In this document: piece after piece, positions 34,905 to 61,772 of the stretch
How positions within the stretch are numbered: the stretch's first letter is position 1
How the letters are laid out: every line of letters begins with the position of its first letter
DNA from: Candidatus Obscuribacterium magneticum
Lineage (GTDB): Bacteria > Elusimicrobiota > Elusimicrobia > F11
Assembly: GCA_020523905.1 (NCBI GenBank)
Contig: JAJAPZ010000002.1
Span: 1 to 64,000, forward strand
Reading direction: 5' to 3'
Length of the DNA: 64,000 nt
Notes under the pieces: generated by a model
The model's database searches: none
Told to the model about the DNA's origin: nothing
Seen by the model: the letters and a program-made list of their open reading frames with translations, nothing else
Program-made: the position numbers and the translations under genes

Positions 34905-36826
34905 GTCAGTACGCTCCTTTCTTTGATCATGTTTTTAAAATGGCTTTGTTTGTCGTGAAATTCTTGCTGCCATAGCTCCAATGAGAGCAGTCCCCATAGT
35001 TTCCGCCCAAACTTTAATTCCCGATGAAGATTGTTCAGCACCTCTCGATTGTTGATAAAGGGTCTTTCTTTTGCTTTTTGAGAAGTGAATATATCGTAGA
35101 TATAATCCTTGAGATCACTCCCCACCCATTCATTGAGAGGCACGGGAAAGCCCATCTTATCTTTTCGTTGACGGATGGATAAGGGAAGACGATGCCCCAT
35201 GGCATTTATAAGGGACATTTTAAGAGTTCCATTTTTAAACTTGATGTTGGAGGGCATCGTTGCAGCAAATTCAACGAGAGGATGATCCAAAAAGGGCACA
35301 CGGGACTCCAGCCCATGGGCCATACCCATCCGATCCTCGACTTGCAAAAGAGCCGGCAGAAGCGTTTTAAAGTCAAAGTGGGTCATGCTGTCGAAGTAGG
35401 ATTCTTTTTTGACGTTGTCACCATGGAAGATTTTCTTGAATGTTTCAAACGGAGAATACCGCCCGAGTTCACCCCATCGGATTTCTTTCTCCAATGTGGG
35501 AGCGCGATTGATCAGCCGGTAATAGCGTTTATCAAGGTCTTCAAAGAGCCCCTCCCGCCAAAACTCTTGTATCAACGGCCTGTAATTGCGCAACGCCTGT
35601 AAATTCGGGATGATGGATTCGTAGGTAACGATGAAGTTTCCGTTGTTCATGGTCCCATCGATCGCGGCTTTGATGCATTGCTCAAAATAGGCCAAAAGAT
35701 AGCGTGTATAACCGCCAAAGATTTCATCTCCCCCCTGCCCTCCCAAGACAACTTTTCTAAATTGCGAAGCGAGTTTTGAGACATGATATTGAGGGAAAGA
35801 ACCGGGTCCGGCGACGGGATAGTCGAGGTGATAGATGACTTTACTGATCGTATCAATGAAATTTTGGCTGGTTATTGTGATTTCATGAAGAGCGAAGTGG
35901 TACATTTCTGCCAGCTCCCGCGCGTAATGGCTCTCATCGTACATGTCGCCCAGGTCAAACTTTCCAATGAAACCCATAAATTCGCCTTCCGTTATCACCC
36001 GCGAGGCCTGGCCGGCGACAAGACTGGAATCGATCCCCCCGCTCAGTGAAGACCCGATGGGAACGTCGCTGCGCGTGTGGATTTTGACGGAGTCATCAAA
36101 AAGGGAAACGAGTTTTTCGTGAAAGTAAGATTCAGGGTGTTCAAAATCCAAGTGGTAATATACGTCCCAATAACGTTCCGTTTTCATTTGCTGATTCTTA
36201 ATGATTAACCGATGAGCGGGTAGAAGCTCGCGGATTCCCTTAAACAATGTCTTGCCGTCCAAGCAGATTTGAAAGACGAGGTAGTCTTTTAATGCGTCGA
36301 CATCGGTTTCGATTGCGGGGAGAAAGGGAAGGAGAGCCTTCGCCTCTGAAGCAAAATAGAACGTATCGTTAATTTGCGTAAAATAAAAGGGTTTGATTCC
36401 AAATCGATCCCGAGCGCAGAACAAGGCTTGTTTTGACTCATCCCAGAGGGCAAACGCAAACATTCCCCGAAAGTGATTGACGCATTCGACCCCCCATTTT
36501 CGGTAGCTGGCCAAGATGACTTCGGTGTCCGATGTGGTCTGATAAGGATAGTCATTCAACTCCGCTTTTAATTCGAGGTAGTTATATATCTCCCCGTTAT
36601 AACAAATGGTGTTTCCGTAGCTGTCCGACATCGGTTGTGACCCTGTTTGGAGATCGATGATGCTAAGCCGGCGATGACCGAATCCGGCAAATCCTCTTTT
36701 ATGAACCCACATTCCTTCGCCATCGGGCCCGCGATGGGCCTGTAAGTCGTTCATCACCGACAGATGCGAAGAAAGGTTGGAATAAGATTTTTTCTGAAAA
36801 TTCAAGATGCCGGCGATTCCGCACAT
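34901..36826 (-). CDS. asnB: Glutamine-dependent asparagine synthase-like amidotransferase, first
   Basis: 641 residues. The N-terminal glutaminase domain starts with the nucleophile Cys2 (MCGIAGIL) and has HRGPDGEG near 32. The C-terminal ATP-pyrophosphatase domain carries SLSGGIDSSLVAG near 260. Full length and intact motifs indicate an active amidotransferase. In O-antigen loci, AsnB-like enzymes convert hexuronic acids to uronamides, using Gln and ATP. The coupling to two SDR epimerases and the nearby WbpI homologue favours amidation of a diacetamido-hexuronate here. A housekeeping Asn synthesis role is possible, but the presence of a second copy at 49385-51262 argues for glycan use. Confidence 0.88.
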   Translation of the reverse strand: MCGIAGILNFQKKSYSNLSSHLSVMNDLQAHRGPDGEGMWVHKRGFAGFGHRRLSIIDLQTGSQPMSDSYGNTICYNGEIYNYLELKAELNDYPYQTTSDTEVILASYRKWGVECVNHFRGMFAFALWDESKQALFCARDRFGIKPFYFTQINDTFYFASEAKALLPFLPAIETDVDALKDYLVFQICLDGKTLFKGIRELLPAHRLIIKNQQMKTERYWDVYYHLDFEHPESYFHEKLVSLFDDSVKIHTRSDVPIGSSLSGGIDSSLVAGQASRVITEGEFMGFIGKFDLGDMYDESHYARELAEMYHFALHEITITSQNFIDTISKVIYHLDYPVAGPGSFPQYHVSKLASQFRKVVLGGQGGDEIFGGYTRYLLAYFEQCIKAAIDGTMNNGNFIVTYESIIPNLQALRNYRPLIQEFWREGLFEDLDKRYYRLINRAPTLEKEIRWGELGRYSPFETFKKIFHGDNVKKESYFDSMTHFDFKTLLPALLQVEDRMGMAHGLESRVPFLDHPLVEFAATMPSNIKFKNGTLKMSLINAMGHRLPLSIRQRKDKMGFPVPLNEWVGSDLKDYIYDIFTSQKAKERPFINNREVLNNLHRELKFGRKLWGLLSLELWQQEFHDKQSHFKNMIKERSVLT

Positions 36827-38948: not shown

Positions 38949-38967
38949 GAGCCTATCCGAATAACCC
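38949..38967. repeat. IS left terminal inverted repeat (19 bp)
   Basis: GAGCCTATCCGAATAACCC, exact match to the complement of 39847-39865. The next bases (TGAG versus CTGATG) differ by a one-base offset, so the perfect part ends here. Confidence 0.93.
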
Positions 38968-39793
38968 TGAGCAGCGATAGGTTATGAAGGCACAAACAAA
39001 ATGAAGCAAGGCCAAATAATTCATCGGTTTCTTCTCCCAGCGGATCAGAATCCGCCTGAAGCGATTCATCCAGCTATGGGTACGCTCGACCACCCATCGC
39101 CTGGCTTTAAATCTCGCGCTGCGCTTGATGGCTTGAGCCTCCTCTCCGCGAGCACGGATATGCGCCGTATATCCAAACTCGTTGACCAGATCTCGCACGT
39201 CATCGTAGTCGTAGCCTTTATCCAAGCACAAACCTTGGGGCGTACGATTCGTCGGCTTTGGGCGCGTAATCGGAATGCTTTTCAGGGTTTCTTCCACCAT
39301 CCTCATGTCATGGCGGTTGGCCCCATCAACAGCCAGACCCACAGGAACACCGGCGGCTTCACACAACACGCTTCGTTTTACGCCGCCTTTGGCTCTGTCC
39401 GTCGGATTTGGCCCGGTTTTTTTCCCCGCCCAGCGGGGCTTTGGTCATGGCGCCATCCATCGACTGTCACGACCAGTTCAGGCCTTTCAGTTCATCGTAC
39501 GCCTGCAACCCCTGTTTCCATAATTTCCGAAACACGCCCTTGTTTGTCCACTCCTGAAAACGGGAATGAGCCGTTGAGCTGCTGCAAATTCCCGTATCGT
39601 TCAATGCGTTCCACTGGCTTCCCGTCCGTAAAACGAAAAAGATTCCGTTCATTGCCTCTCGATCACTCACGCGCGGCCGTCCGCCCCCAAACCGGTGCGT
39701 ATTCTTATGTTTCGGCAGCAGCCTCTCGATTTTCTCCCACATTTTGTCTGAAACCAAATACCGAGCCCCTGATGTTTTTTTCATCGGTGTCAT
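38953..39793 (-). pseudogene. IS5-family DDE transposase, interrupted
   Basis: Two overlapping readings. The first (39793-39467, 108 residues) is the N-terminal part (SDKMWEKIERLLP near residue 15, GGGRPRVSDREAMNGIFFVLRTGSQW near 37-61) ending in LNWS then TGA at 39469-39467. The frame continues after that stop as QSMDGAMTKAPLGGEK, whose Asp is the first DDE acid, where this family normally has WQS-DGA, so TGA stands in for Trp. A run of seven A on the coding strand (39423-39417) then shifts the frame by one. The C-terminal part reads TGPNPTDRAKGG, LCLDKGYD (second D) and RWVVERTHSWMNRFRR (E). Either two inactivating changes or an unusual recoding is needed; inactivation is the simpler reading. 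Confidence 0.85.
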
Positions 39794-39842: not shown

Positions 39843-40934
39843 TCAGGGGTTATTCGGATAGGCTCTAAGCCAAAGGGATGGATCAAAATTATTCCTGAAT
39901 TGATCCGTATAAATTTCTTCGGGAAAGGGGATCCGCACTACAATCAAATGCCCGCCATCTTTGTTGACTGCTTTATTTAAATCATCGATGACAGCCGCCA
40001 TTATTTTAATGCAACCATCGTAGAATCTTTTATAAGAAAGATAAAAAGGGATGTTACCGACGAGTGAGGCGTCCAAATATATGCCGGGATTTATCGGGAT
40101 GTTCTCATTACCAAATGGGAAGAGAATATCTTGGCTATGGTCAACCGTTGGTTCATTCGATGGCGCGGTCTTTTGGGTAAGATTTTGTTTTTTTACCATA
40201 TGAAATTGAGGAGGGTTCGCATTGGCCGCATGAGCATTCGTTGAAGGGGAAATCCTAACGGTACCGTAAAATTTATACAGGGTGGTCGATAGAAGCCGCA
40301 GATATTCATGATAATGTTTTTTGAGGATTTTCGGGATGACAAGCCGATGGGATGTGTCTTCCCTCAGTTCAAAACCTACCCCTGACGGCAGATAATTGAC
40401 GCCGTTGCCATTCCACACGGCCCTGTGCCCGCCGGATCCGCTAACATTGTCGAGATAATCATTGAACCCCATGAATGAAATCACGATGTGCGGTTGATAT
40501 TTTCTAACAATATTTTCATAAGCGATCTTTTGTGCTGTTGTTCCCCAGCCGGACAACCCAAACGTCAATACTCCAGCCTTTTTTCCTTGCGCAATTAATT
40601 TTTTTTCAAGGAGTGCAGGAAATGCTCGGTCCAAAGGAATCCCCAAACATTCGACGTAAGAATCACCAAGGATGGCGATGCGTGTGATCTCTTTTTGTTT
40701 TTCAATTTGATGGTCATAATCACGAAATCCCTCGCTGTTGAACCATCCTTTAGATCGCCCCTCTCCAGCGGTCAGCATGTAAAAACTATGGGGGACATAT
40801 CGCCATCCAATCGCCGGACAAGGCTCTCGTTGGTAGCAGTTCAGGGGAAGGGTAAAAATCAACAGTTGATGAAGGGCTTCGATCAGACCCGCACCCACCA
40901 GAATACCGATTGAGAGAAAAAGGGCTTTTCGCAT
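39843..40934 (-). pseudogene. SGNH-fold acetyltransferase/esterase partner of MBOAT, truncated by IS insertion
   Basis: The open frame codes 363 residues, of which the last eight come from the IS end (LRAYPNNP region). Residues 5-25 are an N-terminal membrane anchor. GDSYVE at 90-95 holds the nucleophile Ser92, GLSGWG near 126 is block II, and MGFND at 155-159 is block III. Block V, with the catalytic His, lies beyond the IS. Without the IS the protein would be 417 residues. It begins 1 base after the MBOAT gene, as AlgI-AlgJ/AlgX-type pairs do: the MBOAT passes acetyl across the membrane and the SGNH protein transfers it to the glycan. Loss of the C-terminus should abolish this function. The restored last block has His where the usual Asp of D-x-x-H stands. 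Confidence 0.87.
39847..39865. repeat. IS right terminal inverted repeat (19 bp)
   Basis: Complement of the left terminal repeat, 19 of 19 bases. It is followed by the TAA target-site duplication at 39866-39868, matching TAA at 38946-38948 before the left end. Confidence 0.93.
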
Positions 40935-42422: not shown

Positions 42423-43598
42423 TTATAAGGGAACAGAAGCGGGTGTCTGTCGGATAAAGGACATTACCGCGCCAATGACATATTCAATCTGGTCGGAGGT
42501 AAGTTCCGGGTAAATGGGCAGAGCAAGAATTTTTCCCGCTGCCTTCTCAGAATGAGGAAAATCCCCTTTGGCATAGCCGAGGTCTTGAAAGCATTCTTGT
42601 AAGTGTAAGGGAAGAGGATAGTAGACTTCGGTCCCAATTCCCCTCTCGGTTAGGTAATGACGTAATTCGTCCCTGTTTTCAACTCGGATGCAATATTGAT
42701 TAAATACGTGTGTGGATCGAGGATATCTTTGGGGAGTGGTTATTTCATTAATTCCATGAAAGGCGTTGTCGTAAATTTCCGCGTTTTTTTGGCGAGTTTT
42801 TGTCCACTGATTAAGATGTTTCAATTTTATCGTTAGAATGGCCGCTTGGAGGGTGTCCAAACGGCTATTGATTCCGACCACCTTGTGATAATACTTCGGT
42901 TCGCTTCCGTGAACCCGAAGGACCTTAACCTTATGAGCTAGTTCGGAGTCTTGAGCCAACACCATTCCTCCGTCACCCAAACCTCCCAGGTTTTTACTGG
43001 GGAAAAAGGAGAGGGCGCCGAAGTCACCCATCGTTCCGGAGGGCCGGTTGTCAAGGCAGGATCCGATGGATTGACAGGCATCTTCAATGATTCGAAGCCC
43101 CCACTCTCGGGAGATTTCTCCAATCGCAACCATGTCAGCGCATTGTCCGTACAAATGGACGGGAAGGATGGCTTTAATGATTCGGCGGGTGGGTTTATGA
43201 ATCACGCCCTCTTTTTCCCGTGAGCATTCCGTTTTTAGAAAGTTTGACACGGCCTTGGGATCGATGTTGAAGGTGTCCGGTTCAATATCAACGAAAAAGG
43301 GGCGTGCTCCAAGACGAGAAATGGATCCAGCGGTGGCGAAAAAAGTGAACGGGGTGGTAATGACGCCATCATTGGAGCCTGTGCCGAGAGCCATGAGGGA
43401 CAATAAAAGGGCATCTGTGCCAGAGGCGACAGCGATGGCGTGGTTGGAGTGGCAATAGGCAGCGACTTGTTTTTCGAGTTCGGCAACCTCGGGCCCGAGA
43501 ATTCCTTTTTGGCTTTCAAGAACCCGTAAAACGGCCTGGTCGATTTCAACCTTGATTGACTTATATTGGGCTTGTAAATCCAGAAGGGGTACTTTCAT
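42423..43598 (-). CDS. wbpE: DegT/DnrJ/EryC1 aminotransferase (WbpE-like)
   Basis: PLP-dependent sugar aminotransferase, 391 residues. VPLLDLQAQYKSIKVEIDQAV is the usual start, GTDALLLSLMALG near 61 holds cofactor contacts, EDACQSIG near 173 gives the PLP-binding Asp, and SFFPSKNLGGLGDGGM near 196 carries the Schiff-base Lys in the form found in WbpE/WlbC and FdtB. The role proposed is C3 transamination of UDP-3-keto-GlcNAcA to UDP-GlcNAc(3N)A with Glu as donor, using the keto-sugar from the WbpB half of the next gene upstream. FdtB/QdtB-type C3 amination of TDP-sugars is an alternative. It follows the fused WbpB-WbpD gene by 5 bases. Confidence 0.88.
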   Translation of the reverse strand: MKVPLLDLQAQYKSIKVEIDQAVLRVLESQKGILGPEVAELEKQVAAYCHSNHAIAVASGTDALLLSLMALGTGSNDGVITTPFTFFATAGSISRLGARPFFVDIEPDTFNIDPKAVSNFLKTECSREKEGVIHKPTRRIIKAILPVHLYGQCADMVAIGEISREWGLRIIEDACQSIGSCLDNRPSGTMGDFGALSFFPSKNLGGLGDGGMVLAQDSELAHKVKVLRVHGSEPKYYHKVVGINSRLDTLQAAILTIKLKHLNQWTKTRQKNAEIYDNAFHGINEITTPQRYPRSTHVFNQYCIRVENRDELRHYLTERGIGTEVYYPLPLHLQECFQDLGYAKGDFPHSEKAAGKILALPIYPELTSDQIEYVIGAVMSFIRQTPASVPL

Positions 43599-45260: not shown

Positions 45261-45992
45261 TCAAACGCCAACCGTTTCATTCATTAGCGTTGAAAACCGC
45301 TGAATTCCATTTTCATTGCCCAAATCGAACTTGGCAAATGTTGTGGTTGGATAAACAATACCACCCGAGTCAATTAAATAATTCATGGCAGGGCCGACAA
45401 AATATTCGCCATTCAATGGTTTCCCAGAATCAAGCTGCCACTCCAGCGCTCGAAGCAGCCACTCACCGCTTCCGAATCCATAGACGCCGCTACTGGCATA
45501 ATGGGAAACCGGGTCTTTTTCAACGATCCTTTTGACCCGTCCGCCCTCAATTATGGCATAACTTGACGACGGTGATAACCCAAAGTATAGGGGGAGATAC
45601 CCCCCCTTCTCGTCGAGCTCTCGTTTGATATCGAAGATGATGTATTGATCACAATTGATAACCGTGCACGGATCTTTTGTCATTAAGGCATCTTTGGCTG
45701 TGTAGACACTGGCGGCCGGCCCAGGAGGGGTGTCGGGGGCCAAAAATACCCGATATTTATTCATTATCACTTCTTTTGAAAGAATGCCTTCGATCGCCTT
45801 TTTCACGTAAAACTCATTTTCGAAGGCTTTTGTCGTTATGAAAATCAGGGAGTCTTCCTTTTGTATTTCATGGCGGATTCCGTGCAGGGCCCATTGGAGA
45901 AGGGGTTTTCCCGACACGATTATTAAGGGTTTGAAGCGACCCCGGTTTAAGGTTCTTTTTCCGAGGCCTGCGATCGGTAGAATCCAAATCAT
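45261..45992 (-). CDS. Sugar nucleotidyltransferase-like protein (start corrected to 45992)
   Basis: The frame extends to 46025, but ATG 45992 forms ATGA with the upstream stop, follows AAGGA by about 10 bases, and gives MIWILPIAGLGKRTLNRGRFKP, the true family start (G-x-G-x-R with the K-P at 21-22). The resulting 243 residues form a single Rossmann-type nucleotidyltransferase domain without a beta-helix tail. INCDQYIIFDIK near 118 carries the metal-binding Asp, and IVEKDPVSHYASSGVYGF the sugar-binding E-K. The substrate is unknown. It immediately follows a glucuronate-isomerase-like gene, so it may activate the product of that group. Similar short enzymes occur near unusual-sugar loci (Cj1416-type). 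Confidence 0.83.
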   Translation of the reverse strand: MIWILPIAGLGKRTLNRGRFKPLIIVSGKPLLQWALHGIRHEIQKEDSLIFITTKAFENEFYVKKAIEGILSKEVIMNKYRVFLAPDTPPGPAASVYTAKDALMTKDPCTVINCDQYIIFDIKRELDEKGGYLPLYFGLSPSSSYAIIEGGRVKRIVEKDPVSHYASSGVYGFGSGEWLLRALEWQLDSGKPLNGEYFVGPAMNYLIDSGGIVYPTTTFAKFDLGNENGIQRFSTLMNETVGV

Positions 45993-47239
45993 CGTTTCTG
46001 TTCCTTCGAATTTATGTTTAGCCATTTTTCAGCGTTGCCGCGAAGAATGTTATAAACGTCTTGTCGAATCCCTTCGCGCGTCAACGGCCAATTCACCTGG
46101 CATAGTTTCGCGTAATGCTCGATCAAAACGTCTTTGAGAATCTTTTTAAAATGAATCCACTTGTAAATCAAGTGCTCAAGAACGCGGGCATCCGAGTGCT
46201 GCCCGATAAAACTGGACCCCAGCAGTTCCAAACGCATGGTGAGCGTTTCCCTGATGATGGATGGAATGTTTAAAAACCACCAAAATCCGAATATTCGCAT
46301 GTTCTGAAAGTTTTTCGCCAGAACGAGGAGGGGATATTGAGAACTGCGAGAAAGCGTCGTAATGAGGAATTTATTTTCGGCATACTGGGAGAGTAAATCT
46401 TCAAGGACACGAAGGTCATCGCCCACCAGCCCATCTCCTCCTAAACCGTAGAGGGGATTTACTTGACGTTTCACTCCAAGCATCAGAGCCAAGGGGATTT
46501 GCCGCTCGGCAAGGAAAGGGAGCAACGACGTGCAGAAAAATTTATCACGTTTCAACGCGTGCAATTGATCCCACGTGGCGGACAAGGCGAAGTAAAGAGG
46601 CTGAACGGAGGAGGTTGTTTTGGATAAATATTCCATTAAACCTTTATCCGTTCTTTTCTTCTTTTTCAATGCAGAATTCACGGGTTGAGAAGTTAAAAAG
46701 ACGTCATCCAAGCGGATGGAGGGTCGAAAATGTTTTTTATCCCACGTCGTTTTATTAAAGAGGGACCATTCATCGTTATCAAAGGGATTGTTTGTCATCG
46801 AGACCCATTCTACGCCGGCCAAACGAAAAACGTCGTTCATGTAGGATGATGTCGAATTCATCCTGTCCCGGAATTGACGTTGAAGAAATTCGTAATTTTG
46901 GCCGTTAATGGGAAGCCCCAATTGGGTGAGTATCGTTACCACTCCTTGACACGCTTCCGATAGGGGTGAGCGCTCCTCAAACAAGTGCGTCCATATGCGT
47001 TCGGCTTGTTGTTGACGCGTAAACGACCGATATAATTTTGGAGAGAAGCCACTGGAGGAAAGAAATTCGGAAGATAAATAATGGTACGTTAGAATAGAGT
47101 CAAGGCCTGCTTGAAAATAGGATGTGTGTTCCGGCGGAAAAAGGTGCGTATGGATATCGATGAGGGGAGTTTGATCAACCGCTTCTTGAATGCTCGATTC
47201 CAACTGCGCCCGATCAATTTTCTTCAAAGATGTTGACAT
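45989..47239 (-). CDS. Glucuronate isomerase-like amidohydrolase
   Basis: 416 residues of the metal-dependent amidohydrolase superfamily. LIDIHTHLFPPEH at 26-38 gives the D-x-H-x-H metal site and, with the ~120-residue all-helical region after it, resembles UxaC (uronate isomerase, aldo-keto interconversion of GlcA/GalA). FGFWWFLNIPSIIRETLTMRLELLG near 320-344 and QHSDARVLEH near 348 match the UxaC family end (GRHWWFND and SDSR), although with substitutions. Full UxaC is about 470 residues, so this is shorter. It precedes the nucleotidyltransferase gene (ATGA) and follows a GT gene by 3 bases. I infer isomerisation of a uronic acid or phospho-sugar for the glycan. Catabolic use is less likely in this setting. 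Confidence 0.75.
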   Translation of the reverse strand: MSTSLKKIDRAQLESSIQEAVDQTPLIDIHTHLFPPEHTSYFQAGLDSILTYHYLSSEFLSSSGFSPKLYRSFTRQQQAERIWTHLFEERSPLSEACQGVVTILTQLGLPINGQNYEFLQRQFRDRMNSTSSYMNDVFRLAGVEWVSMTNNPFDNDEWSLFNKTTWDKKHFRPSIRLDDVFLTSQPVNSALKKKKRTDKGLMEYLSKTTSSVQPLYFALSATWDQLHALKRDKFFCTSLLPFLAERQIPLALMLGVKRQVNPLYGLGGDGLVGDDLRVLEDLLSQYAENKFLITTLSRSSQYPLLVLAKNFQNMRIFGFWWFLNIPSIIRETLTMRLELLGSSFIGQHSDARVLEHLIYKWIHFKKILKDVLIEHYAKLCQVNWPLTREGIRQDVYNILRGNAEKWLNINSKEQKR

Positions 47240-47242
47240 TGA

Positions 47243-48133
47243 TTAAACGACCTGGGTTAACTTCACCATCACTTTTCGAGAGTGGACGCTGAGGTAGCTA
47301 TCAATTTGCGCTTCGACCTCCAAGTTGAACGATATGGTGTTGCTTAAGGTGATGTTCGGATGATGGGCGTCTTTAAAGGAGTCGTCAATGTCGAAGGCGT
47401 CCGTTTGAATGGAATGAACGCCGGTTCCGTCAAAACCGATGTTTTTAATAAGCGTTCGCGACGGAAAAATGGCGAAGCTGTTCGTCAGATAATGGACAAG
47501 AGACCAACTGATACTCCAGATGTCGGCATTGCCGTTGAGGAAGTAATCTTCGCTGCAGAATTTCTTGAGATCCTGTGACAATCGATCGAAAAGACCCCGG
47601 GCGTTAATCTCGAGCGCGAGTTTTCGAGCGTCGTTTGTATAGTCCGCCCAACGATCTTTCCATGTGGCCCATCCCCATGGATTGAAGCGATAAAGAGGGA
47701 TGCCGTGAATATCCTTGGATTTGTGATCAACGAACGGATATTGATAGCCACAAACGCTTCGGACCTTATGATGGGTGCGGTATTTCGTTAGGCTTTCATT
47801 CATAAACTTAAAAAAGCCGGGCAAGGGGCAACAGTCATCTTCCAAAAGGATGACGCTATCATGGTGTTTTAATTGTTCCGAAACGCACTCTGTAATCGAC
47901 GTGGCCAAACCCGTATTTTTTCCCCTTCGAATGAGTTTGATCTTTGCCCAATCAATGCTTTCATAAATTTTTACCAATTCTTTTTGAAGGGCATGGTCCT
48001 TCTTATTCAAAGGCGCATCCATGTAGATAACGAAATTCGTGACGCCTTCGGTGCGCATGGAATCGAGGACTTGGGCTGTGTGATGGGGTCTGTTGTACGT
48101 TATAAGAACAATGGCAGTATTTAGTTTGTGCAT
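47243..48133 (-). CDS. GT-A type glycosyltransferase (start uncertain)
   Basis: 296 residues from ATG 48133; the frame also has ATG 48148. 48133 is preferred because it gives MHKLNTAIVLITYNRPHHTAQVLDSM, the family start. Neither has a strong ribosome-binding site, and both overlap the PFK-like stop. AIVLITYNRP is GT-A/GT2-like, and the metal motif is VILLEDDCCPLPGFF near 95 (E-D-D). YRFNPWGWATWKDRWADY near 161 is a signature of bacterial GT-A proteins resembling GnT-I-type transferases in O-antigen loci. It lies between PFK-like and glucuronate-isomerase-like genes, so it may transfer the sugar they make. Donor unknown. Confidence 0.82.
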   Translation of the reverse strand: MHKLNTAIVLITYNRPHHTAQVLDSMRTEGVTNFVIYMDAPLNKKDHALQKELVKIYESIDWAKIKLIRRGKNTGLATSITECVSEQLKHHDSVILLEDDCCPLPGFFKFMNESLTKYRTHHKVRSVCGYQYPFVDHKSKDIHGIPLYRFNPWGWATWKDRWADYTNDARKLALEINARGLFDRLSQDLKKFCSEDYFLNGNADIWSISWSLVHYLTNSFAIFPSRTLIKNIGFDGTGVHSIQTDAFDIDDSFKDAHHPNITLSNTISFNLEVEAQIDSYLSVHSRKVMVKLTQVV

Positions 48134-49374
48134 AGACTGGTTTCCCATTTGTCTAGTATTTTTCGTTTAACCGGCTCGACCGGTTCGATAAAACGCGGGA
48201 TACATTCATCAATTGGGATATGCGTCGAAGGGCCTTTAAGGAAAGGCCTGAGATAGTCGACATAATCGTTCGACACATCGAAGGCCCCGCGCCAGATCCA
48301 GCGTTTCGGCATCACTCGGGAAAAATTGTTAATGGACGCAAGGGGAAGAGCGTCCATTTGTGGTTGTTCGCTGTGATAACGGGAGACAGACGCCAGAAAA
48401 TGAGTTTTACCTTCGTCAAAGGATCGAATAATAAATTCACCGAGTTGATAAGAAAAGTTCATGTCCATCTCCGACGTAAACATAATTTCAAGGCGTTGAT
48501 CAACCGTCGGGATATACGCCCGCGTTTGGATCCCATTTTTCATTAAGTGATTGACAAGAAGCTGAGCGGCGGTCGTTCCGCTTGACCCATACATGATTTG
48601 GCCGGAGGGGTCATAAACCTGGCCGAGATCACCGACTTGATATCCCTCGGATAATATCACAATCACCCGTTTCTGTTGAGAAAGTGTTTTTTCAATAGCA
48701 GAAATAACGGCGTCCAAATTCTGTTGATCTTCAGGAAGGAGAAGTAGTAAGGGGAATCGGCGTTCCGTGTCCCCCACTCGCGGCGCCCCGGATAAAAATC
48801 CGGTTTCTCGGCCAAATGTCTGTGCCACGAGGACCCGATCGTGGGAACAGGCGCCCAAACTTTCTTGGTTTAAAAGATGCAGTTTGTGGACCCAGTAGCG
48901 GACACAACTTGGGAAACCGGGTGTAAAATAAACTTTCTGAAATTCGGCATCCCCCAAATCGTTGTCAACTGTTTTCGGAGCGGCGGCAATTTTTAAATCG
49001 ACAGGCCCCATTTTATCGGCAATGCTTTTTGTCTGCTTGATGGTTCCGTTTCCGCCAATGTTGATGAAATAACCGATCTTGTAGGCATCGATGACCTCGA
49101 AGAGACGTTGAATTTCCCGATCCGACAAGGGGGTGATTCGAGTCGTCCCTAAAAAACCAGAGCCGGGGGTTGTTTTTAGAAGGGCCAGCGCTTTATCGTC
49201 CAAGTTCGTTAAATCCACGAGGTCTTCATTTAACGCCCCTAAGATTCCCGGAAATCCCGCATAGATTTTCCCGAAGCGAGGCGACTTCTTAACTTGTGAA
49301 AGGATACCCGCCAGCGTCGCATTGATGACCGTCGTTGTTCCCCCCGACATGGTGATGAGAAGATTATTATTCAT
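48121..49374 (-). CDS. Phosphofructokinase-family protein, divergent
   Basis: 417 residues, with landmarks of the PFK superfamily: MSGGTTTVINATLAG at 9-23 (PFK SGGD-PG-NA), INIGGNGTI at 105-112 (usually GGDGS or GGDDS), APKTVDNDLGDAEF at 132-145 (PKT-D-D of PPi-PFK and Mg site), AQTFGRETGFLSGAPRV at 184-200 (GR-AG) and ILSEGY at 240-245. GGNGT changes the catalytic Mg Asp to Asn, so either the metal site is altered or the enzyme has another phosphate acceptor. PKT with Lys suggests PPi rather than ATP use, but Asn makes this unclear. It lies 10 bases after an AsnB gene and overlaps the GT start. Central glycolytic PFK is unlikely here. I infer a sugar-phosphate kinase for glycan synthesis. 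Confidence 0.8.
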   Translation of the reverse strand: MNNNLLITMSGGTTTVINATLAGILSQVKKSPRFGKIYAGFPGILGALNEDLVDLTNLDDKALALLKTTPGSGFLGTTRITPLSDREIQRLFEVIDAYKIGYFINIGGNGTIKQTKSIADKMGPVDLKIAAAPKTVDNDLGDAEFQKVYFTPGFPSCVRYWVHKLHLLNQESLGACSHDRVLVAQTFGRETGFLSGAPRVGDTERRFPLLLLLPEDQQNLDAVISAIEKTLSQQKRVIVILSEGYQVGDLGQVYDPSGQIMYGSSGTTAAQLLVNHLMKNGIQTRAYIPTVDQRLEIMFTSEMDMNFSYQLGEFIIRSFDEGKTHFLASVSRYHSEQPQMDALPLASINNFSRVMPKRWIWRGAFDVSNDYVDYLRPFLKGPSTHIPIDECIPRFIEPVEPVKRKILDKWETSLCTN

Positions 49375-49384
49375 CTATGACATC

Positions 49385-51262
49385 TCACCTCGTTACCAAG
49401 GCTTCTGGAACGTGATCAATGAGGACACGAAACCACATCTCAACAATAAGCATCTGAAAAATTCCCAGGCTATTGACGGAGAGATCGGCCTTTCGAAAAT
49501 CCTCATAGCTTTCCAACGCCCTTTGCGATTTGATAAGCCCTCTATCAGCGAAGATTTTCGAATTGAATATGTCTTTGACCCATTCCACAAGCGGTCCTTT
49601 TAACCAGGCCTTTTGGGGGTCGGCCACACTTCTTTTATTGGCGTTCAAGAGAGACGGCGGCAAAAGGCTAAGGACGGCTTCTTTCATAAATCGTCGAAGA
49701 TGGCCATCGGAAATCTTCGCCGAGTTTTCAAATGAAAACCCCAGCTCCACCAACCGATGGTCCAGAAGCGGAAGGCGTGCCTCCCGGCCCGTCGCCATCG
49801 AAGCACGTTCGATGTATCTTAATCCTCTTGGTAGTTTGGCGTACAGGAGGTCGATAAACTGGGAATTTCTCAAGTTGCTTCGAAAAGGTTTGGGGTAAAC
49901 AGGTTTTCTCTGGCCGTAATGGTCGACAAAATCCGGTTCTAATACATCAGGGTCAAGGTAGGGAATGCCATCGGACGTGCATAAACCCGCTTGTTCGTAG
50001 TTGGCGGCGGAACCAAGCAGAAAGTTTATTAATTGGGGGCCTTTCATACCGATGCTCTCACTGAAAGACAGCAACTCTTTTGCCGCCTTTGAGGGCCCGC
50101 GTTCCTTTAAATTATCCAGATACCAGCTCCATAAGTAACTCGAATATCCCGCTCCAATTTCATCCCCGCCGGAAGCTTCTAAAATGACGGTGCTCCCCTT
50201 TTTTTCAAAGTCGGCGTACAATTTGTGGTGCGAAAGCTGGCGGAATGATGTGAAGGGCTCATCCTCTTCGGAGAGAGCGCGCGGAAGCCAGTCGGGGATA
50301 TCCTTGTCGCTTAACATCGATGTGTCATTGGAGACGCCGAGTGTCTGGGCAACGTTTTTTGCAAATGGGCGTTCGTCAAATAGAGTTTCTTCGTATCCGA
50401 AGGTGTAGGTGGAAATCGTATCGGGGTAAAGATGAGAAACCATCGCGGTGACCACGGTGGAGTCGACTCCGCCGGACAGATGAACGCCGACTTTTCGGTC
50501 GGATTGCAGTTGCAGACGAAGGGAATCGCTGAGAAGCTCGCGGAACCGGTCGATGCCTTCCTTCATTCCGACTGGGTTGTTTTCGTCGATTTGGTCCGGG
50601 AGCCAGTAGTATTTATCCTTCCGAAATTCATTTTTACGGAGGAAGATGTATTCTCCCGGCATAAGGCTTTGAATCCCTTGAAACCACGTGTCTTCCGAAT
50701 AGTCCAGGGCTCCCCAACGAAGAAATTCGCCGATCTTAAAGTAGTTGGGTTCCCGCGGAACGCCGGCAGCCAATATCCCCTTTATTTCAGAAGCGAAAAT
50801 AAAGCGGCCGTTTTTTAAAGAATAATAAAAAGGTTTGATCCCATAACGATCGCGCGCCGCAAAAAGCGTTTTTTCTTTTATATTCCATATGGCAAAAGCG
50901 AACATGCCGTTCAATTTCGACAGGCAGGCGGCCCCCCATTTTTCAAAAGCTCGCAGGAGAACTTCGGAATCACCGGTTGAGCGCCACGACGGGGATTCCC
51001 CCAACTGTGTGCGGAGATCCTTGAAATTGTAGATTTCCCCGTTGAAGATCATGATGAGATTTTTATCTCGGCTCACCATGGGTTGGGCTGCATGATCGGT
51101 CAAATCCAGGATTTTTAACCGGCGATGTCCCAGAGCTGCATTCTCGTCCGCCCACAGGCCTTCCCCATCGGGGCCCCGATGAGACAAGACCGAGTTCATT
51201 CGAGCCACGAGCTTTGAATCCACCGCTTGTTTAAAATCGATGATTCCAGAAATCCCGCACAT
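49385..51262 (-). CDS. asnB: Glutamine-dependent asparagine synthase-like amidotransferase, second
   Basis: 625 residues. Cys2 nucleophile in MCGISGII, SHRGPDGEG near 30, and ATP-pyrophosphatase signature LSGGVDSTVVTAM near 257; GDEIGAGYS near 370 and the tail ARLPLLDHRLVELGFSF near 505 are as in AsnB. It is distinct from the copy at 34901-36826 but of the same type. It sits 5 bases after the GlpX-like gene and 10 before the PFK-like gene, so it belongs to the unusual group. Amidation of a uronic or phospho-sugar acid is inferred. An Asn-forming role is less likely. Confidence 0.88.
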   Translation of the reverse strand: MCGISGIIDFKQAVDSKLVARMNSVLSHRGPDGEGLWADENAALGHRRLKILDLTDHAAQPMVSRDKNLIMIFNGEIYNFKDLRTQLGESPSWRSTGDSEVLLRAFEKWGAACLSKLNGMFAFAIWNIKEKTLFAARDRYGIKPFYYSLKNGRFIFASEIKGILAAGVPREPNYFKIGEFLRWGALDYSEDTWFQGIQSLMPGEYIFLRKNEFRKDKYYWLPDQIDENNPVGMKEGIDRFRELLSDSLRLQLQSDRKVGVHLSGGVDSTVVTAMVSHLYPDTISTYTFGYEETLFDERPFAKNVAQTLGVSNDTSMLSDKDIPDWLPRALSEEDEPFTSFRQLSHHKLYADFEKKGSTVILEASGGDEIGAGYSSYLWSWYLDNLKERGPSKAAKELLSFSESIGMKGPQLINFLLGSAANYEQAGLCTSDGIPYLDPDVLEPDFVDHYGQRKPVYPKPFRSNLRNSQFIDLLYAKLPRGLRYIERASMATGREARLPLLDHRLVELGFSFENSAKISDGHLRRFMKEAVLSLLPPSLLNANKRSVADPQKAWLKGPLVEWVKDIFNSKIFADRGLIKSQRALESYEDFRKADLSVNSLGIFQMLIVEMWFRVLIDHVPEALVTR

Positions 51263-51267
51263 AAGGG

Positions 51268-52251
51268 TTAACCTTTTGCCCGACGAGACACCCTGGGGCG
51301 ATCGTGTTCGGTATCGATATAGTTGATGGCTCGATCGTGAGAACTCATCACGACGGAATGGGTCACGATTTTAGTGGGATAGTGCTCGACACCTTTCAAG
51401 AAGGGTCCCGACGTAACACCCGTGGCGCAGAAAATGACGGGCCCCCTTGCCAACTCTTCGTGTTTATATATTTTTTTGAGATCTTTGATACCGGCGTTTC
51501 GAGCTCGGCGGATTTCGTCTGGATTCCGATACCAGAGTTTTCCCTGAATTTCTCCACCGAGACAATGGAGCGCCGTTGCCGCCAGCACGCCTTCGGGAGC
51601 CCCCCCAATGCCGAAGAGACAGTCGTTTCGGTTGTTCAGATGCCAGCTTGTGGAAATGGCCCCGATGACATCCCCGTCATCGACGACCTTTATCAGGACT
51701 CCCATCCGATGCAACACTTCAATAAACTCTTGATTATAAGGCCGGTTAAGGATAGTAAAACGCAAGTCTTTAATACGGCATTTTTTTGCCTTTGATATAA
51801 AAGCGACGTTTCGGGACAAGGGTTGGTTCAGATCAATGACTCCTTTGGCTTCGGGGCCAACGGCTATTTTCAACATGAACATATCGGGCGCGTGGAGGAG
51901 TTGCCCCTTTTGCGCGAGAGCCATAATCGATAAGGAACCCGGCTTTCCGTTCGCGCAAATCCGCGTTCCTTCAAGCGGATCGACGGCGATATCGACGCTT
52001 GGCCCGCATCCGTTTCCCGTCTTTTCATGAAACCGCAGTGCAGGCGCGGCGTCTCTTAAGCCTTCGCCGATAGCGATACGCCCTTGGAATGGGCACTTTT
52101 TAAGGTGTTTCCTCATCGCGGCGACGGCACTCCGATCGGCCCCCATGCGATTGCCGGACCCGGCGTATCGGGATGCGGCGATAGCGCCCGCTTCAGTGAC
52201 GGAAACGACGTCGATTGAAAGAGAAGGGGCAAAGCAGTGAATTGCCTTCAC
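51268..52251 (-). CDS. glpX: Class II fructose-1,6-bisphosphatase-like phosphatase (GlpX family)
   Basis: 327 residues of the GlpX family, Li-sensitive Mg-dependent sugar bisphosphatases. IAIGEGLRDAAPAL at 59-72 and VDIAVDPLEGTRICANGKPGSLSIMALA at 86-113 form the metal site (D-P-L-E-G-T). GIGGAPEGVLAATAL at 213-227 and VIFCATGVTSGPFLKGV near 270 complete the family pattern, so the enzyme looks active. The start is GTG at 52251, overlapping the previous stop by 4 bases. It lies beside AsnB and a PFK-like gene. The combination of a kinase-like and a bisphosphatase-like gene suggests handling of a sugar bisphosphate dedicated to glycan synthesis. It could also be a misplaced housekeeping FBPase, for which the location is odd. 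Confidence 0.9.
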   Translation of the reverse strand: MKAIHCFAPSLSIDVVSVTEAGAIAASRYAGSGNRMGADRSAVAAMRKHLKKCPFQGRIAIGEGLRDAAPALRFHEKTGNGCGPSVDIAVDPLEGTRICANGKPGSLSIMALAQKGQLLHAPDMFMLKIAVGPEAKGVIDLNQPLSRNVAFISKAKKCRIKDLRFTILNRPYNQEFIEVLHRMGVLIKVVDDGDVIGAISTSWHLNNRNDCLFGIGGAPEGVLAATALHCLGGEIQGKLWYRNPDEIRRARNAGIKDLKKIYKHEELARGPVIFCATGVTSGPFLKGVEHYPTKIVTHSVVMSSHDRAINYIDTEHDRPRVSRRAKG

Positions 52252-53312
52252 TTTGAAAACCAGAAGGAATTTCTGTCCTTAAACTTTGAATAATCAAGGA
52301 AAGAGCGATAAAAATCATCGATTTTTAGTGGATACGCCTGGCCAAAATGGGATTGAATTTTCTTCAAAACCTTCTTCTTTTGACTGTTCGTGAGGATGGG
52401 GCCGAGTATCCGATCAATAAAACTCTTGTTGTTTTTCATCCACCAGTTTTTTAAGTCCGCCAAAATTCTTTTGTCACCGGAGTGTTTCTGCAAATGATAT
52501 TCGATGGCCGGACCCCTCATAAGATTGTTTTCAGTGAGATAAAAGGACTGAAGCCGATGCCCCATATTACCGGGGAAATCAGCGGTGTGTATATGAATAA
52601 ATTTACGAGCGGGGTCCAGGGAAGCGGGGCGCACAGGCCGTATTGGAAATGCCACGGGATCCCCCCCCGGCCATCGAAGGGTGTCTGTCCAATCGGAATA
52701 CTCGAGAATCCTGGCCCGCGGCAGTTTTGCCATGAACTGTAAAGCGAGAATCCCATGGATTGTTAATAAATGAGGCAGTTGGTCCATCACATCAAAATCA
52801 AATACTTTGTACTCTGACATCTTCTTGGCATTAAAGAAAAAGAAGTGGTCGTCCAGGGTTCCCACCGGATTGTCCGGCATGAAATAACCCATATTTGATC
52901 GCATGGCGAGCCAATATTGTTCCTCATCCAATATGTCAAATAAATCCAACAGTTTTTGTTCCGAAAGAGGCCAAGCATCGCAATGAATATGCATAACGTA
53001 ATCGCATCCGTCCCGCATAGCGAGCTGACATGACCTTTGCAGAGACGTTGTTGATCGAGCCGTGATCAAAAATCGACGATCCTGGAACCGTTGTGTTTTC
53101 GAGGGATCGTACTCAATGTTTTCTCCTTGGACGAAACCAGCAAACTCCAAGCGCCTCTTTGTCATTTCTTTTGTTGCGTCGTCATAATTTGAGCAAACGT
53201 AAAGGAAATATCTATTTTTAAAGTTGTAGCGGAAAATGTCGTGGAGAATGGCCAAGTCATCGAACTTGTCATAAAGAGTGATGGCAATGCCCAGTTTTTT
53301 ATTGTTTTTCAT
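52248..53312 (-). CDS. Uncharacterised GT-A-like protein
   Basis: 354 residues, not a family I recognise. It begins LGIAITLYDKFDDLAILHDIFRYNF, like a nucleotide-sugar-binding Rossmann start, and contains YVMHIHCDAWPLSEQKL near 106-122. There H-x-H-x-D could be a metal motif in place of D-x-D, followed by FFFFNAKKM and LEYSDWTDTLRWPGGDPVAFPIRPV. The C-terminal 110 residues are basic and helical. A run of eight G in the coding strand encodes WPGGD. It lies 32 bases after a flippase gene and is coupled to the GlpX-like gene. Its position and outline suggest a glycosyltransferase, but this is inference. No signal peptide or membrane segment is evident. Confidence 0.6.
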   Translation of the reverse strand: MKNNKKLGIAITLYDKFDDLAILHDIFRYNFKNRYFLYVCSNYDDATKEMTKRRLEFAGFVQGENIEYDPSKTQRFQDRRFLITARSTTSLQRSCQLAMRDGCDYVMHIHCDAWPLSEQKLLDLFDILDEEQYWLAMRSNMGYFMPDNPVGTLDDHFFFFNAKKMSEYKVFDFDVMDQLPHLLTIHGILALQFMAKLPRARILEYSDWTDTLRWPGGDPVAFPIRPVRPASLDPARKFIHIHTADFPGNMGHRLQSFYLTENNLMRGPAIEYHLQKHSGDKRILADLKNWWMKNNKSFIDRILGPILTNSQKKKVLKKIQSHFGQAYPLKIDDFYRSFLDYSKFKDRNSFWFSK

Positions 53313-57811: not shown

Positions 57812-58788
57812 GACGATTTCCCATGAGTGGCCTTATTTGTAATCGATGAAATTAGTTCTTGTGTTTTCAAGGCTTCCTCGCCATCACAGGTAAAGGGGGT
57901 TTTATCTCCGCTTAATTTACCGGCCACTTCTGAAAAAAGAGGAAGGAAGCGCTCCTTCTTAGGAAGCCGAGGCGAGGGACAAACCGTCAACTCGCGATAT
58001 CCGCTGTATCTTTTACTCCTCTCAAAATAACCCCATTGAATTTCTCCGCAATTGTTCACAACGCGGCAACGTCCTTTTCGACCAACGATATCGATCTCAA
58101 ATATCAAATCCTCTCTTTTTCCTGTCGGTATTAAGTGAAAAAGCGTCCGTCCCCTGTTTTTCATTAGGGCGCCAAAACTTTTATCTTCTTTTGATGAGAC
58201 ATAGGCACGGATAACTTCCAATTCACCAAGCAGATATCGTGCCAGATCTACCATGTGGGATCCAACGGCTTCAAATGGGCCGGAGTAATACCCCAATGCC
58301 TGGGTGATTCGCCCCAGACGGTTTTTATTTAAGAGTTGTTTCTTCAGGTATTCAATGGTTCCTTCGAATCGCTTGTAGTAGTTAACAGCTAATAGGGTAT
58401 TTTGTTTACGGCAACGATAAACGGCTTGTCGACAGGAACGGAGATCTGTCCCCAAGGGTTTTTCACAGATGATGGCGCGAACTTTACCGGCGCACTCCAT
58501 GGCATGTTGTGCGTGAAGTTGGGGAGGTGTGCATAGGCTCACGATGTCCAAGGATTCTCTTTCCAGCATCGTTGGGAGGTTTTTATACGCCCTCACATTT
58601 TTCCTTTTGAGTGCTTTTTTAATTTTCTCGGGGTCCAATTCGCAGACGGCAACCAAATCGAATCGGTTATTTAATCTTTCGTAGGCTGTAAAATGTGTCC
58701 ACACCCCTTCCCGACGTTTGTCATCGTCAAAAAGGAGTCCCACTTGGCCGAGACCTACAATGGCCGCCCGAAAACGTTTGTTAGTCAT
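57808..58788 (-). CDS. Gfo/Idh/MocA family oxidoreductase
   Basis: 326 residues, NAD(P)-dependent. The N-terminal Rossmann fold opens AAIVGLGQVGLLFDDD (8-23), ICEKPLGTDLRSC near 109 gives the E-K-P-L signature with catalytic Lys, and GSHMVDLARYLLGE near 177 is the substrate H-D region. The family oxidises or reduces sugar hydroxyls, often NDP-sugars. It sits between two DegT aminotransferase genes (8-base overlap and 4-base ATGA), an arrangement that suggests oxidation then transamination of one sugar. Comparable to PtmF-like oxidoreductases of legionaminic acid loci, but that match is by context only. Confidence 0.87.
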   Translation of the reverse strand: MTNKRFRAAIVGLGQVGLLFDDDKRREGVWTHFTAYERLNNRFDLVAVCELDPEKIKKALKRKNVRAYKNLPTMLERESLDIVSLCTPPQLHAQHAMECAGKVRAIICEKPLGTDLRSCRQAVYRCRKQNTLLAVNYYKRFEGTIEYLKKQLLNKNRLGRITQALGYYSGPFEAVGSHMVDLARYLLGELEVIRAYVSSKEDKSFGALMKNRGRTLFHLIPTGKREDLIFEIDIVGRKGRCRVVNNCGEIQWGYFERSKRYSGYRELTVCPSPRLPKKERFLPLFSEVAGKLSGDKTPFTCDGEEALKTQELISSITNKATHGKSS

Positions 58789-60262
58789 AGGTTAAGACCC
58801 GGGTCAGTTCTTTAATTTGCTGAATCTTTTGGAAGGCTTGCGAAATGCGTTCGATTTCCTCAGCCCTTAAGGAAACAGCCGAGGGAAGACTTAATCCGGT
58901 TTGAGAAATTCGGTTGGTGATGGGAAACTCGTCATGTTTAACGTAAGGGGTATAGGGGGGCATCGTATGAAGAGGGTGAAAAGCGGGCCGGGTCTCGATA
59001 CCATTTTGCAGCAGCTTATGCATGAGCTCGTCGCGATGAAACCCTGAGTTCGTATTAACCAGAATGGTATAAAGCCAGTAGCTACTTTTTGCCCACGTCA
59101 CGGTGAGGGGCAACGTGATTCCCGGGAAATTTTTTAGGATGGTTTCATATTGGCTAGCCAGAGACCGTTTTTTAACGATAAAAGAATTGGCTCTCTCCAT
59201 TTGCGCTACCCCGATGGCGGCTTGAAGGTTCGTCAGCCGGTAGTTGTAACCGGCTTCCAAATGCCAGTATCGCCGTTGGGGCGTCATGCCATGGTCGCGC
59301 AGAAGTCTTGCCCGGTTGTAATGTTCTTCGTTGTTGAAGAGGATCATCCCCCCCTCTCCGGTCGTAATGAGTTTGTTGCCGAAAAAGCTGAAACACCCCG
59401 CCTCTGCGAATGTCCCCACGAGCCGGCTTTTATATGTTGCGCCAAAGGCCTCCGCACAGTCTTCAATAATGCGGAGGTCATGTTTTTTGGCGATTTCCAT
59501 GAGAGGGTCCATATCGCATGGTTGGCCGTACAAATGGACAGGCATGATGGCCTTTGTCTTAGGGGTTATCGCCTTCTCGACGAGCTCCGGATTGAGCGTC
59601 CACGTTTCTTCGGTAACGTCGACAAAAACGGGTGTGGCGCCGGCGTGAATCACGGCGTTGGCGGAGGCGGCAAAAGTGAGATCGGGGACGATGACTTCGT
59701 CCCCCCGTCCGATCCCCAGCGTGACCAAAGCCAGATGAAGGGCCACCGTTCCGTTTGAGACGGCCAGAGCTTTTTGGCCCGCATGGAATTCGCTGAACAC
59801 TTTTTCGAATTGATTGACAAAGCGGCCCTGCGAAGAGATCCAGTTCGTTTGCAGACATTCCATAACGTAAGACACCTCATTGCCGTCCAGAAGGGGTTCC
59901 ATGATGGGAATTTGATGGAGCCGGTGGTGGGAGGCGAAATCGATGGGGCGTCCGTCCTCATCAAGCAGTGGGATGATGGCAATTCGTTCTGAAAGGTGTT
60001 GGAGAACGATCTCGTGAGGCGTGGTGACGGCTAACGCCACATAATTTCGCTGCATGATTTCATTGAGAGATGTTTCCAGCGTGATCCCTTTGATGAGAGC
60101 GCGACGAACGTCCCCGTCTGTCACCGTCCCCGTCAGTTTCCCATTGCCGTCAACAATAAAAGAGATGCCCAGTGCCGTCCGGTTAATCAACTCCAGGACA
60201 GAGCGGATGGATGATTTCTCATTTATTGTTAGATCATGAATGGTTATAGTTGGGGAACTCAT
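58781..60262 (-). CDS. CBS-domain pair fused to DegT-type aminotransferase (start corrected to 60262)
   Basis: The frame extends to 60379, but the ATG at 60262 forms ATGA with the upstream stop and begins MSSPTITIHDLTINEKSSIRSVLELIN. The result is 493 residues. Residues ~5-120 are a tandem CBS pair (GISFIVDGNGKLTGTVTDGDVRRALIKG and IIPLLDEDGRPIDFAS). The rest is a full DegT aminotransferase: SNGTVALHLALVTLGIG near 175, EDCAEAFGATYKSR near 264, and CFSFFGNKLITTGEGGM near 289 with the PLP Lys. CBS pairs often bind adenine nucleotides and gate activity, so this may be an allosterically regulated aminotransferase. In Campylobacter PtmE a CBS pair is instead fused to a nucleotidyltransferase, so the present pairing is unusual. 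It overlaps the Gfo/Idh gene by 8 bases. Confidence 0.88.
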   Translation of the reverse strand: MSSPTITIHDLTINEKSSIRSVLELINRTALGISFIVDGNGKLTGTVTDGDVRRALIKGITLETSLNEIMQRNYVALAVTTPHEIVLQHLSERIAIIPLLDEDGRPIDFASHHRLHQIPIMEPLLDGNEVSYVMECLQTNWISSQGRFVNQFEKVFSEFHAGQKALAVSNGTVALHLALVTLGIGRGDEVIVPDLTFAASANAVIHAGATPVFVDVTEETWTLNPELVEKAITPKTKAIMPVHLYGQPCDMDPLMEIAKKHDLRIIEDCAEAFGATYKSRLVGTFAEAGCFSFFGNKLITTGEGGMILFNNEEHYNRARLLRDHGMTPQRRYWHLEAGYNYRLTNLQAAIGVAQMERANSFIVKKRSLASQYETILKNFPGITLPLTVTWAKSSYWLYTILVNTNSGFHRDELMHKLLQNGIETRPAFHPLHTMPPYTPYVKHDEFPITNRISQTGLSLPSAVSLRAEEIERISQAFQKIQQIKELTRVLTYD

Positions 60263-61122
60263 TTTTCCATGGCCTTTTTCAAGAGTCCGATTTGGCGACG
60301 AAGATCCTCCGGGGTCGAAGGACCGACTTCCAATACGTGAAAAGCCTGCCGAAATCGATTCATATGGGGAAGGAACCAATAGTCGTTGGACAGCGTCTGG
60401 TTATTGTCCCTCAAGCCATCATTATCGCTGTGGTGAATGGCGACCACGCGGTCAGCCACCTTTTCGACAAATAAATGGGGGTCTTTGCCCCGTGTGAGGG
60501 ATGAGATTTTTACATGAGCGGTGTCCAGGAGGAGACCCAGTAAGGGATGAGACAATTCCTTAAACAACGTTATGATTTCATCGGCGTCGATGAACAGCAA
60601 AGGGTAGGTGCCGGATGAAGAGAGGTTTTCTTTAATCAAAAGATTGTTTTCAATGAGAAGCTTCACTTTATGACGTTCCGCTTCCATAAGAAGTATTTTT
60701 ATGGCCTTCACAAACGCGTTCCAGTGATCCATTCGATTGTCCGGGGAGGTGGAAGAGTTGAATTTATTACCCAATTCTTGCGGGGCCGGGTTCGCGCAAA
60801 AGCCGGCATGTATGGAATAAAAGGGGCTGCCGATAAGACGGGTCAGATTCAATCCTTGTTTGCCGTGGCCAACGGATTTTTCCCAAACGGCTTGATCCAG
60901 GCTGGCCAGGTTGAGAACAAAGGGTGTTTCGGGAGGTGGAAAATAGTTGTGGATGTAGCGTTTGCATCTAATCCCCAAAAATTTATCTTCCAGATGGGGT
61001 TCGTGTTGGAAACTGGATGAAAATTCGATGGGGAGACTGTTATCCAGGGCCAATTTTTCAATTTCAGCCACCGTTTTATTGGGGAAGGCCGTCGTGCTGA
61101 TGGCAAATTTAATTTCGTTCAT
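60259..61122 (-). CDS. TIM-barrel sugar isomerase/epimerase-like protein
   Basis: 287 residues of the xylose isomerase-like/AP-endonuclease-2 superfamily. LLIENNLLIKE near 155 provides a metal-binding Glu, LLDTAHVKISS near 198 an Asp-His pair, and VAIHHSDNDG near 227 the later metal site, so the divalent-metal centre looks intact. The exact reaction is not readable. Its position between the NeuD-like and CBS-aminotransferase genes suggests epimerisation or isomerisation of a sugar intermediate of the nonulosonate route. ATGA-coupled on both sides. No NeuC/LegG-type hydrolysing epimerase is in the window, so this enzyme may fill part of that gap; that is inference. Confidence 0.8.
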   Translation of the reverse strand: MNEIKFAISTTAFPNKTVAEIEKLALDNSLPIEFSSSFQHEPHLEDKFLGIRCKRYIHNYFPPPETPFVLNLASLDQAVWEKSVGHGKQGLNLTRLIGSPFYSIHAGFCANPAPQELGNKFNSSTSPDNRMDHWNAFVKAIKILLMEAERHKVKLLIENNLLIKENLSSSGTYPLLFIDADEIITLFKELSHPLLGLLLDTAHVKISSLTRGKDPHLFVEKVADRVVAIHHSDNDGLRDNNQTLSNDYWFLPHMNRFRQAFHVLEVGPSTPEDLRRQIGLLKKAMEK

Positions 61123-61772
61123 TTTTTTAATCTCGCCGGCGCACCGTAGACAGTGACTTTATTGGGAATATCGTTTACGACGACGGAACCAGCCCCGACA
61201 ACGGCCCCTTCGCCGATGGAAATTCGATCGATGACACTGGATCCGATCCCAATAAATGTCCCCTGACCAATTTTCACTCGACCGGCAATCGAACAGCCCG
61301 GCGCAATGTGAACGAAGGGCCCAACGATGGTTTCATGATCAATGATGGAGCCGGTGTTGATAATCGATCCTTCGCCGATCCTGCCGGCTGAAGTGATGAT
61401 GGCGCCGTCGCAAATCAGGGCCCCCTCTCCAATCATCACGTTTTGTTCAATATGAGCCCCGGGATGGATCAAAGGAGGCATATCGAATCCGACCTGTTTC
61501 AGTTTGGTGAATAATTGGCGACGTTCGTCGTTGTCACCGATCGCCAGGGCCGCCAACCGGACCCCTTTTTTATAGAGCGCCGGGAGGTCCCCAAATTCTC
61601 CGATGACGGGAACCCCCAGTATCTTTTCATTCGCCCTCGGTTCGTTCCGATCCAGTAAACCAACCACTTGATAGTGGCCCATCCTTGAAAGGACGGATAC
61701 AACGACGCGGGAATGGCCTCCCGTGCCGACAATAATGATTTTTCGCTTCGAACGTTTTTTATCGGCAGTCAT
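61119..61772 (-). CDS. neuD: NeuD-type sialic acid O-acetyltransferase-like protein (start corrected to 61772)
   Basis: ATG 61772 makes ATGA with the NeuB stop; the frame runs to 61820 but that start lies in the upstream gene. 217 residues. A Rossmann-like N-terminal domain (KIIIVGTGGHSRVVVSVL near 12-29) and a left-handed beta-helix from about 95 (IGEGALICDGAIIT, IGEGSIINTGSIIDHETIVGPFVHIAPGCSIAGRVKIGQGTFIGIGSSVIDRI) ending VVVNDIPNKVTVYGAPARLK. The architecture matches PglD/NeuD/LegH-like acetyltransferases. The catalytic His of PglD/NeuD is probably the H in HETIVG. Acetyl-CoA dependent acetylation of an amino or hydroxyl group on a nonulosonate or its precursor is proposed. Confidence 0.88.
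   Translation of the reverse strand: MTADKKRSKRKIIIVGTGGHSRVVVSVLSRMGHYQVVGLLDRNEPRANEKILGVPVIGEFGDLPALYKKGVRLAALAIGDNDERRQLFTKLKQVGFDMPPLIHPGAHIEQNVMIGEGALICDGAIITSAGRIGEGSIINTGSIIDHETIVGPFVHIAPGCSIAGRVKIGQGTFIGIGSSVIDRISIGEGAVVGAGSVVVNDIPNKVTVYGAPARLKK

Follow-up and report, generated by a model that had tools for sequence, protein, structure and literature searches.

The window, a stretch of 64,000 nucleotides from “Candidatus Obscuribacterium magneticum,” carries within a glycan gene block a run of genes that resemble enzymes of central metabolism. The initial annotation had placed six genes here, all of which we found at the expected positions, on the minus strand, with gaps of only a few bases between neighbors or overlaps of some tens. 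Two of their families are clear from standard models: an AsnB-like glutamine amidotransferase (49385 to 51262; PF00733, TIGR01536) and a GlpX-like phosphatase (51268 to 52251; PF03320, 375 bits). A divergent kinase (48121 to 49374; PF00365, 106 bits) is clearly a member of the PFK family, and a uronate-isomerase-like (UxaC-like) amidohydrolase (45989 to 47239) matched no Pfam model and was assigned through its similarity to BH0493. The proposed families of the other two genes also held, but on weak or marginal matches. These are a GT-A type glycosyltransferase (47243 to 48148; marginal match to Glycos_transf_2 at 21 bits) and a short sugar-phosphate nucleotidyltransferase (45261 to 46025), which falls in a family like that of PDB 4evw, matches NTP_transferase marginally, keeps the GxGKR...KPL motif, and possibly starts at a later ATG near 45992. 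Because almost every gene in the window points the same way, tight co-directional packing does not single out these six and by itself proves little about a shared function.

Upstream of the set are genes that we take to form a nonulosonic acid pathway, including NeuB (61772 to 62821), a PglD/NeuD-like acetyltransferase, a TIM-barrel protein, a CBS-DegT protein, and a PseF-like cytidylyltransferase. The CBS domain-DegT aminotransferase fusion (58781 to 60379) near the NeuB, NeuD-like, and PseF-like genes could indicate a variant of that pathway. Downstream, a Gfo/Idh-acetyltransferase fusion accompanies a gene that is presumably a DegT-type aminotransferase (42423 to 43598), a pair that we assume to be arranged as in diacetamido-hexuronate pathways. 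Elsewhere in the window, reading by eye suggested an IS5-like transposase in two open reading frames (38953 to 39793) that adjoins an SGNH-type gene (39843 to 40934), which may be truncated by the transposase. The 180-kb contig looks chromosomal, since genes resembling trp, murA, polA, and tsaD lie further along it (also read by eye). The genome bin has a completeness of 71% and a contamination of 13%.

The UxaC-like protein shares 37% identity over its full length with the solved uronate isomerase BH0493 (PDB 2q08, 3hk5). It is likely to have uronate isomerase activity: of 80 near-invariant columns, defined by conservation of at least 97% across 81 relatives, 70 are unchanged in it and ten differ. 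Those retained include the HxH pair H30/H32, R176, W320, W321, R336, H348, D350, and R352. Among the best matches read, its closest relatives are 40 to 43% identical and come mostly from single-cell alphaproteobacterial genomes, with one from a Neomarinimicrobiota genome. The gene was absent from the other 234 genomes of the class that we searched and has no second copy in its own genome. A plasmid collection yielded no UxaC and PFK matches only at 22 to 30% identity.

The GlpX-like protein scores 304.6 bits against TIGR00330, above the curated cut-off of 259.3, and all catalytic and metal-binding residues tested are kept (D27, E51, D79, D/E82, T84, D181, D183, and E208). In the M. tuberculosis enzyme, Tyr114, Arg159, and Arg161 are assigned to the 6-phosphate, in an architecture said to set specificity for fructose 1,6-bisphosphate (FBP) (PMC5892879), and the R-P-R motif has likewise been tied to FBP specificity (PMC10289334). 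We compared the window protein in an alignment with the M. tuberculosis enzyme and with 31 homologues. Of these, 30 were the best among 80 matches from Pseudomonadota and one came from a class relative, so the comparison draws mainly on one phylum. The triad reads F/R/Y in the window protein (Y114F and R161Y in M. tuberculosis numbering), so it lacks the full FBP-specificity triad, whereas Y114 and R161 are retained in all 31 homologues; R159 is unchanged, as is the DGD (furanose) motif. Since two residues of the 6-phosphate triad are altered here and both are kept in the 31 homologues compared, fructose-bisphosphatase activity is improbable. Most simply, the protein would be a functional phosphatase acting on a substrate with no phosphate at the former 6-phosphate end.

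Neither a second GlpX nor a class I FBPase was found in a search of the same genome. Among 60 relatives, one has a clear GlpX and one further match is marginal; the GlpX of genome G026 is an ordinary standalone-type gene. Of 235 genomes of the class, this is the sole one with the UxaC-like gene, and a clear GlpX occurs in just 1 of 60 relatives. The UxaC-, GlpX-, and PFK-like genes look acquired and foreign to the class.

The PFK-like protein matches the catalytic PKT[IV]DND motif (as PKTVDND), followed directly by a GDAEF insertion, and falls below the cut-off of the PPi-PFK model PRK14072 (241.6 versus 273 bits). Its donor site reads GGNG, and the protein combines a Gly that we take to be ATP-type with a Lys that we take to be PPi-type, a mixture that points to no single phosphoryl donor. 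A tree built from 26 PFKs places it in one clade with four other proteins (support, 100/99), all five sharing an NDxGD[SA]EF insertion. The clusters of these four sister PFKs, which come from Hydrogenedentota as well as from the window's phylum, encode a D-mannonate-oxidoreductase-type SDR, a HAD protein, a PdxB-like dehydrogenase, a LarA-superfamily protein, and 6-phosphogluconate dehydrogenase (Gnd). The LarA-superfamily neighbor best matches a model for a “putative hexonate epimerase,” with a score below the model's cut-off. Across 68 Hydrogenedentota genomes, most have the PFK clade (57 matches at E < 1e-70, some of them fragments); LarA is adjacent at 22 of 30 loci and Gnd at 18 of 30, with flanks of only 1.5 kb. 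Among the loci of this clade (L104-L106, L127, and L167-L195), the arrangement of a clade member between a LarA-type gene and Gnd occurs in many Hydrogenedentota, and the same cluster is present in three genomes of the window's phylum. Based on this placement, the sister proteins are most simply read as candidate hexonate/gluconate kinases. Transfer of that substrate to the window protein is uncertain because it sits on a long branch and shares only 35% identity with the sister clade. Neither a LarA epimerase nor Gnd was found among the scanned genes neighboring the window PFK.

Could the PFK- and GlpX-like proteins instead act on hexose or heptulose phosphates, as a local fructose 6-phosphate/FBP or sedoheptulose node feeding nucleotide sugars or as a replacement for a missing FBPase step? 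This is the normal role of both families, it would suit the kept R159 and DGD motif, and no class I FBPase or other GlpX was found in the genome, with relatives mostly lacking both. Yet Y114 and R161 are altered, two other PFK genes are present (contigs C93 and C94), and most of the class does without GlpX, so we regard this explanation as unlikely. On the possibility of housekeeping copies, raised at the outset, the genome has these two other PFKs and no other GlpX or UxaC-like gene. Judging by the altered 6-phosphate triad of one and the divergent clade, with its hexonate-metabolism neighbors, of the other, the GlpX- and PFK-like genes of the set do not look like ordinary glycolytic copies, in line with the initial annotation.

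The relationships of the UxaC-like and PFK-like proteins also raise the prospect of a catabolic uronate operon that adjoins the glycan genes by chance, since in other settings both the UxaC family and the PFK sister clade seem to serve catabolism. We consider this very unlikely. No match to the LarA group 18 hexonate epimerase was detected in the same genome or in 60 relatives. Moreover, the set holds a nucleotidyltransferase and glycosyltransferases and lies between nonulosonate and diacetamido-hexuronate genes.

The nucleotidyltransferase does not match PF01128 and has homologues within the class at 24 to 32% identity. In one class genome (G021), such homologues directly precede a homologue (33% identity, 166 bits) of the protein encoded next to the six genes at 52248 to 53312 on the minus strand, a probable glycosyltransferase without a Pfam match. 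Because this adjacency ties together the two ends of the window's run, it suggests that the set extends to 53312. Besides the glycosyltransferase homologue, the G021 locus (L214:8070-11553) holds a HAD-like gene and a tandem pair of 4evw-type nucleotidyltransferases.

The AsnB-like gene is less readily attached to the set. The contig carries other genes of this kind, one in the window at 34901 to 36826 and another further along (L208:16006-17937). AsnB is therefore no special mark of the cassette, and its link to the other genes is weak. Amidation of a uronic acid by AsnB is possible on the basis of position, beyond which the amidation step of the original proposal finds no support.

Recurrence of the set elsewhere would have been strong support for a joint function. 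A search across 84,980 species recovered 429 relatives of the UxaC-like protein, and in the best 80 of these 429 loci, read with up to 10 kb of flank on each side, no PFK, GlpX, or nucleotidyltransferase homologue was nearby. The set occurs together nowhere else in the data searched, neither in a relative nor at any UxaC homologue locus read. A lack of conserved linkage had been named beforehand as counting against a shared pathway, and to that extent the initial proposal is weakened. As a separate candidate association, we considered UxaC (E < 1e-20) and the PFK clade in Hydrogenedentota; they co-occur in 35 of 68 genomes, which is not significant (Fisher p = 0.18), and linkage was not seen, so the association was rejected. 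Literature searches for the gene set also found nothing, in agreement with the earlier remark that no described pathway has it.

These results leave some room for a scenario in which a gene-rich glycan island took up unrelated genes one at a time, with no pathway in common: for example, the UxaC-like protein could turn over uronates, the nucleotidyltransferase and a glycosyltransferase could serve one sugar, and PFK and GlpX could balance carbon. The absence of the set from any second genome fits such a history, as do the single orientation of the whole block and the commonness of AsnB and glycosyltransferase genes within it. It accounts less well for three rare, foreign-looking genes with sugar-acid leanings inside 7 kb, or for a GlpX change and a PFK clade that indicate the same kind of substrate. 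On balance, we think it somewhat improbable.

The broader claim that the set is a dedicated module of the surface-glycan cluster, making a nucleotide-activated sugar acid, seems to us about as probable as its negation. Its joint function rests on chemistry and position rather than on recurrent linkage. The evidence from PFK, GlpX, and UxaC makes the sugar-acid pathway envisaged in the initial annotation plausible, although neither recurrence of the set nor amidation by AsnB adds to it. Because the GlpX triad change, the context of the PFK clade, and the identity of the UxaC-like protein agree, hexuronate or hexulosonate chemistry is indicated. We infer the substrates, the order of steps, the product, and the role of AsnB from the observed families, residue changes, clade membership, and gene contexts.

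In the proposed scheme, the UxaC-like protein would interconvert a hexuronate and its 2-keto form (of the fructuronate or tagaturonate type), for example converting glucuronate to fructuronate. Fructuronate may be viewed as fructose 6-phosphate in which a carboxylate replaces the phosphate-bearing C6, and with that carboxylate at C6 and altered 6-phosphate grips, the PFK- and GlpX-like proteins would suit acids. The former would add a phosphate at the CH2OH end of the acid as a hexonate/hexulosonate kinase, and the latter would take phosphate off this end as a sugar acid phosphate phosphatase. The short nucleotidyltransferase would activate the resulting sugar phosphate, the glycosyltransferase at 52248 to 53312 would transfer the activated sugar, and AsnB may amidate the carboxylate. 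One objection is that, with no further step in between, a kinase would merely be undone by a phosphatase working on the same end, in a futile cycle; the two could coexist if they act at different positions or if there is such a step. In its most specific form, the proposal is a biosynthetic pathway, so far undescribed, that yields a hexulosonate or an uncommon hexuronate in nucleotide-activated form, with fructose 6-phosphate/FBP enzymes retooled for a carboxylate at the 6-phosphate site and mirrored by a widespread, apparently undescribed PFK-family hexonate kinase in uronate catabolism. We advance this version tentatively and think it clearly less probable than not.

Both GlpX and PFK are among the textbook enzymes of central metabolism, and annotation pipelines assign these names automatically; at least one of the two proteins here appears to have lost most of its grip on the textbook substrate. 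If the proposal is correct, the locus would yield an activated acid sugar not seen before, the PFK and GlpX folds would each gain a further class of substrates, and the PFK clade that accompanies hexonate genes in most Hydrogenedentota genomes would have to be renamed.

Parts of the scheme have precedents. In the GDP-heptose pathway, an isomerase, a kinase, a phosphatase, and a nucleotidyltransferase feed a surface glycan (PMC10680097). The window set shows the same division of labor, including a ketose/aldose isomerase, but its isomerase, kinase, and phosphatase are not of the GmhA, HddA, and GmhB types, and its substrate appears to be a sugar acid. Activation of a non-anomeric ketose phosphate for capsule by a nucleotidyltransferase is known from CDP-6-D-fructose and CDP-6-D-glucitol synthesis by C. 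jejuni HS5.18/HS5.17 and S. pneumoniae Mnp1/Mnp2 (PMC10918830); unlike that system, the set here lacks a PF01128-matching nucleotidyltransferase and the reductase pair and has an additional isomerase, kinase, and phosphatase. A hexulosonic acid is known in the capsule of E. coli K3, as the title of a work cited in PMC10433991 indicates. On the catabolic side, there is hexuronate degradation with the LarA-type epimerase GntE (PMC7583248), and the UxaC-like and PFK-like proteins are related to enzymes in that setting, but the epimerase, the mannonate oxidoreductase, and Gnd are missing from the window set, which has nucleotidyl- and glycosyltransferases instead. Finally, the UxaC-like protein resembles BH0493 in its 37% full-length identity and mostly kept family residues and differs from it in its ten changed near-invariant columns and its place in a glycan cluster.
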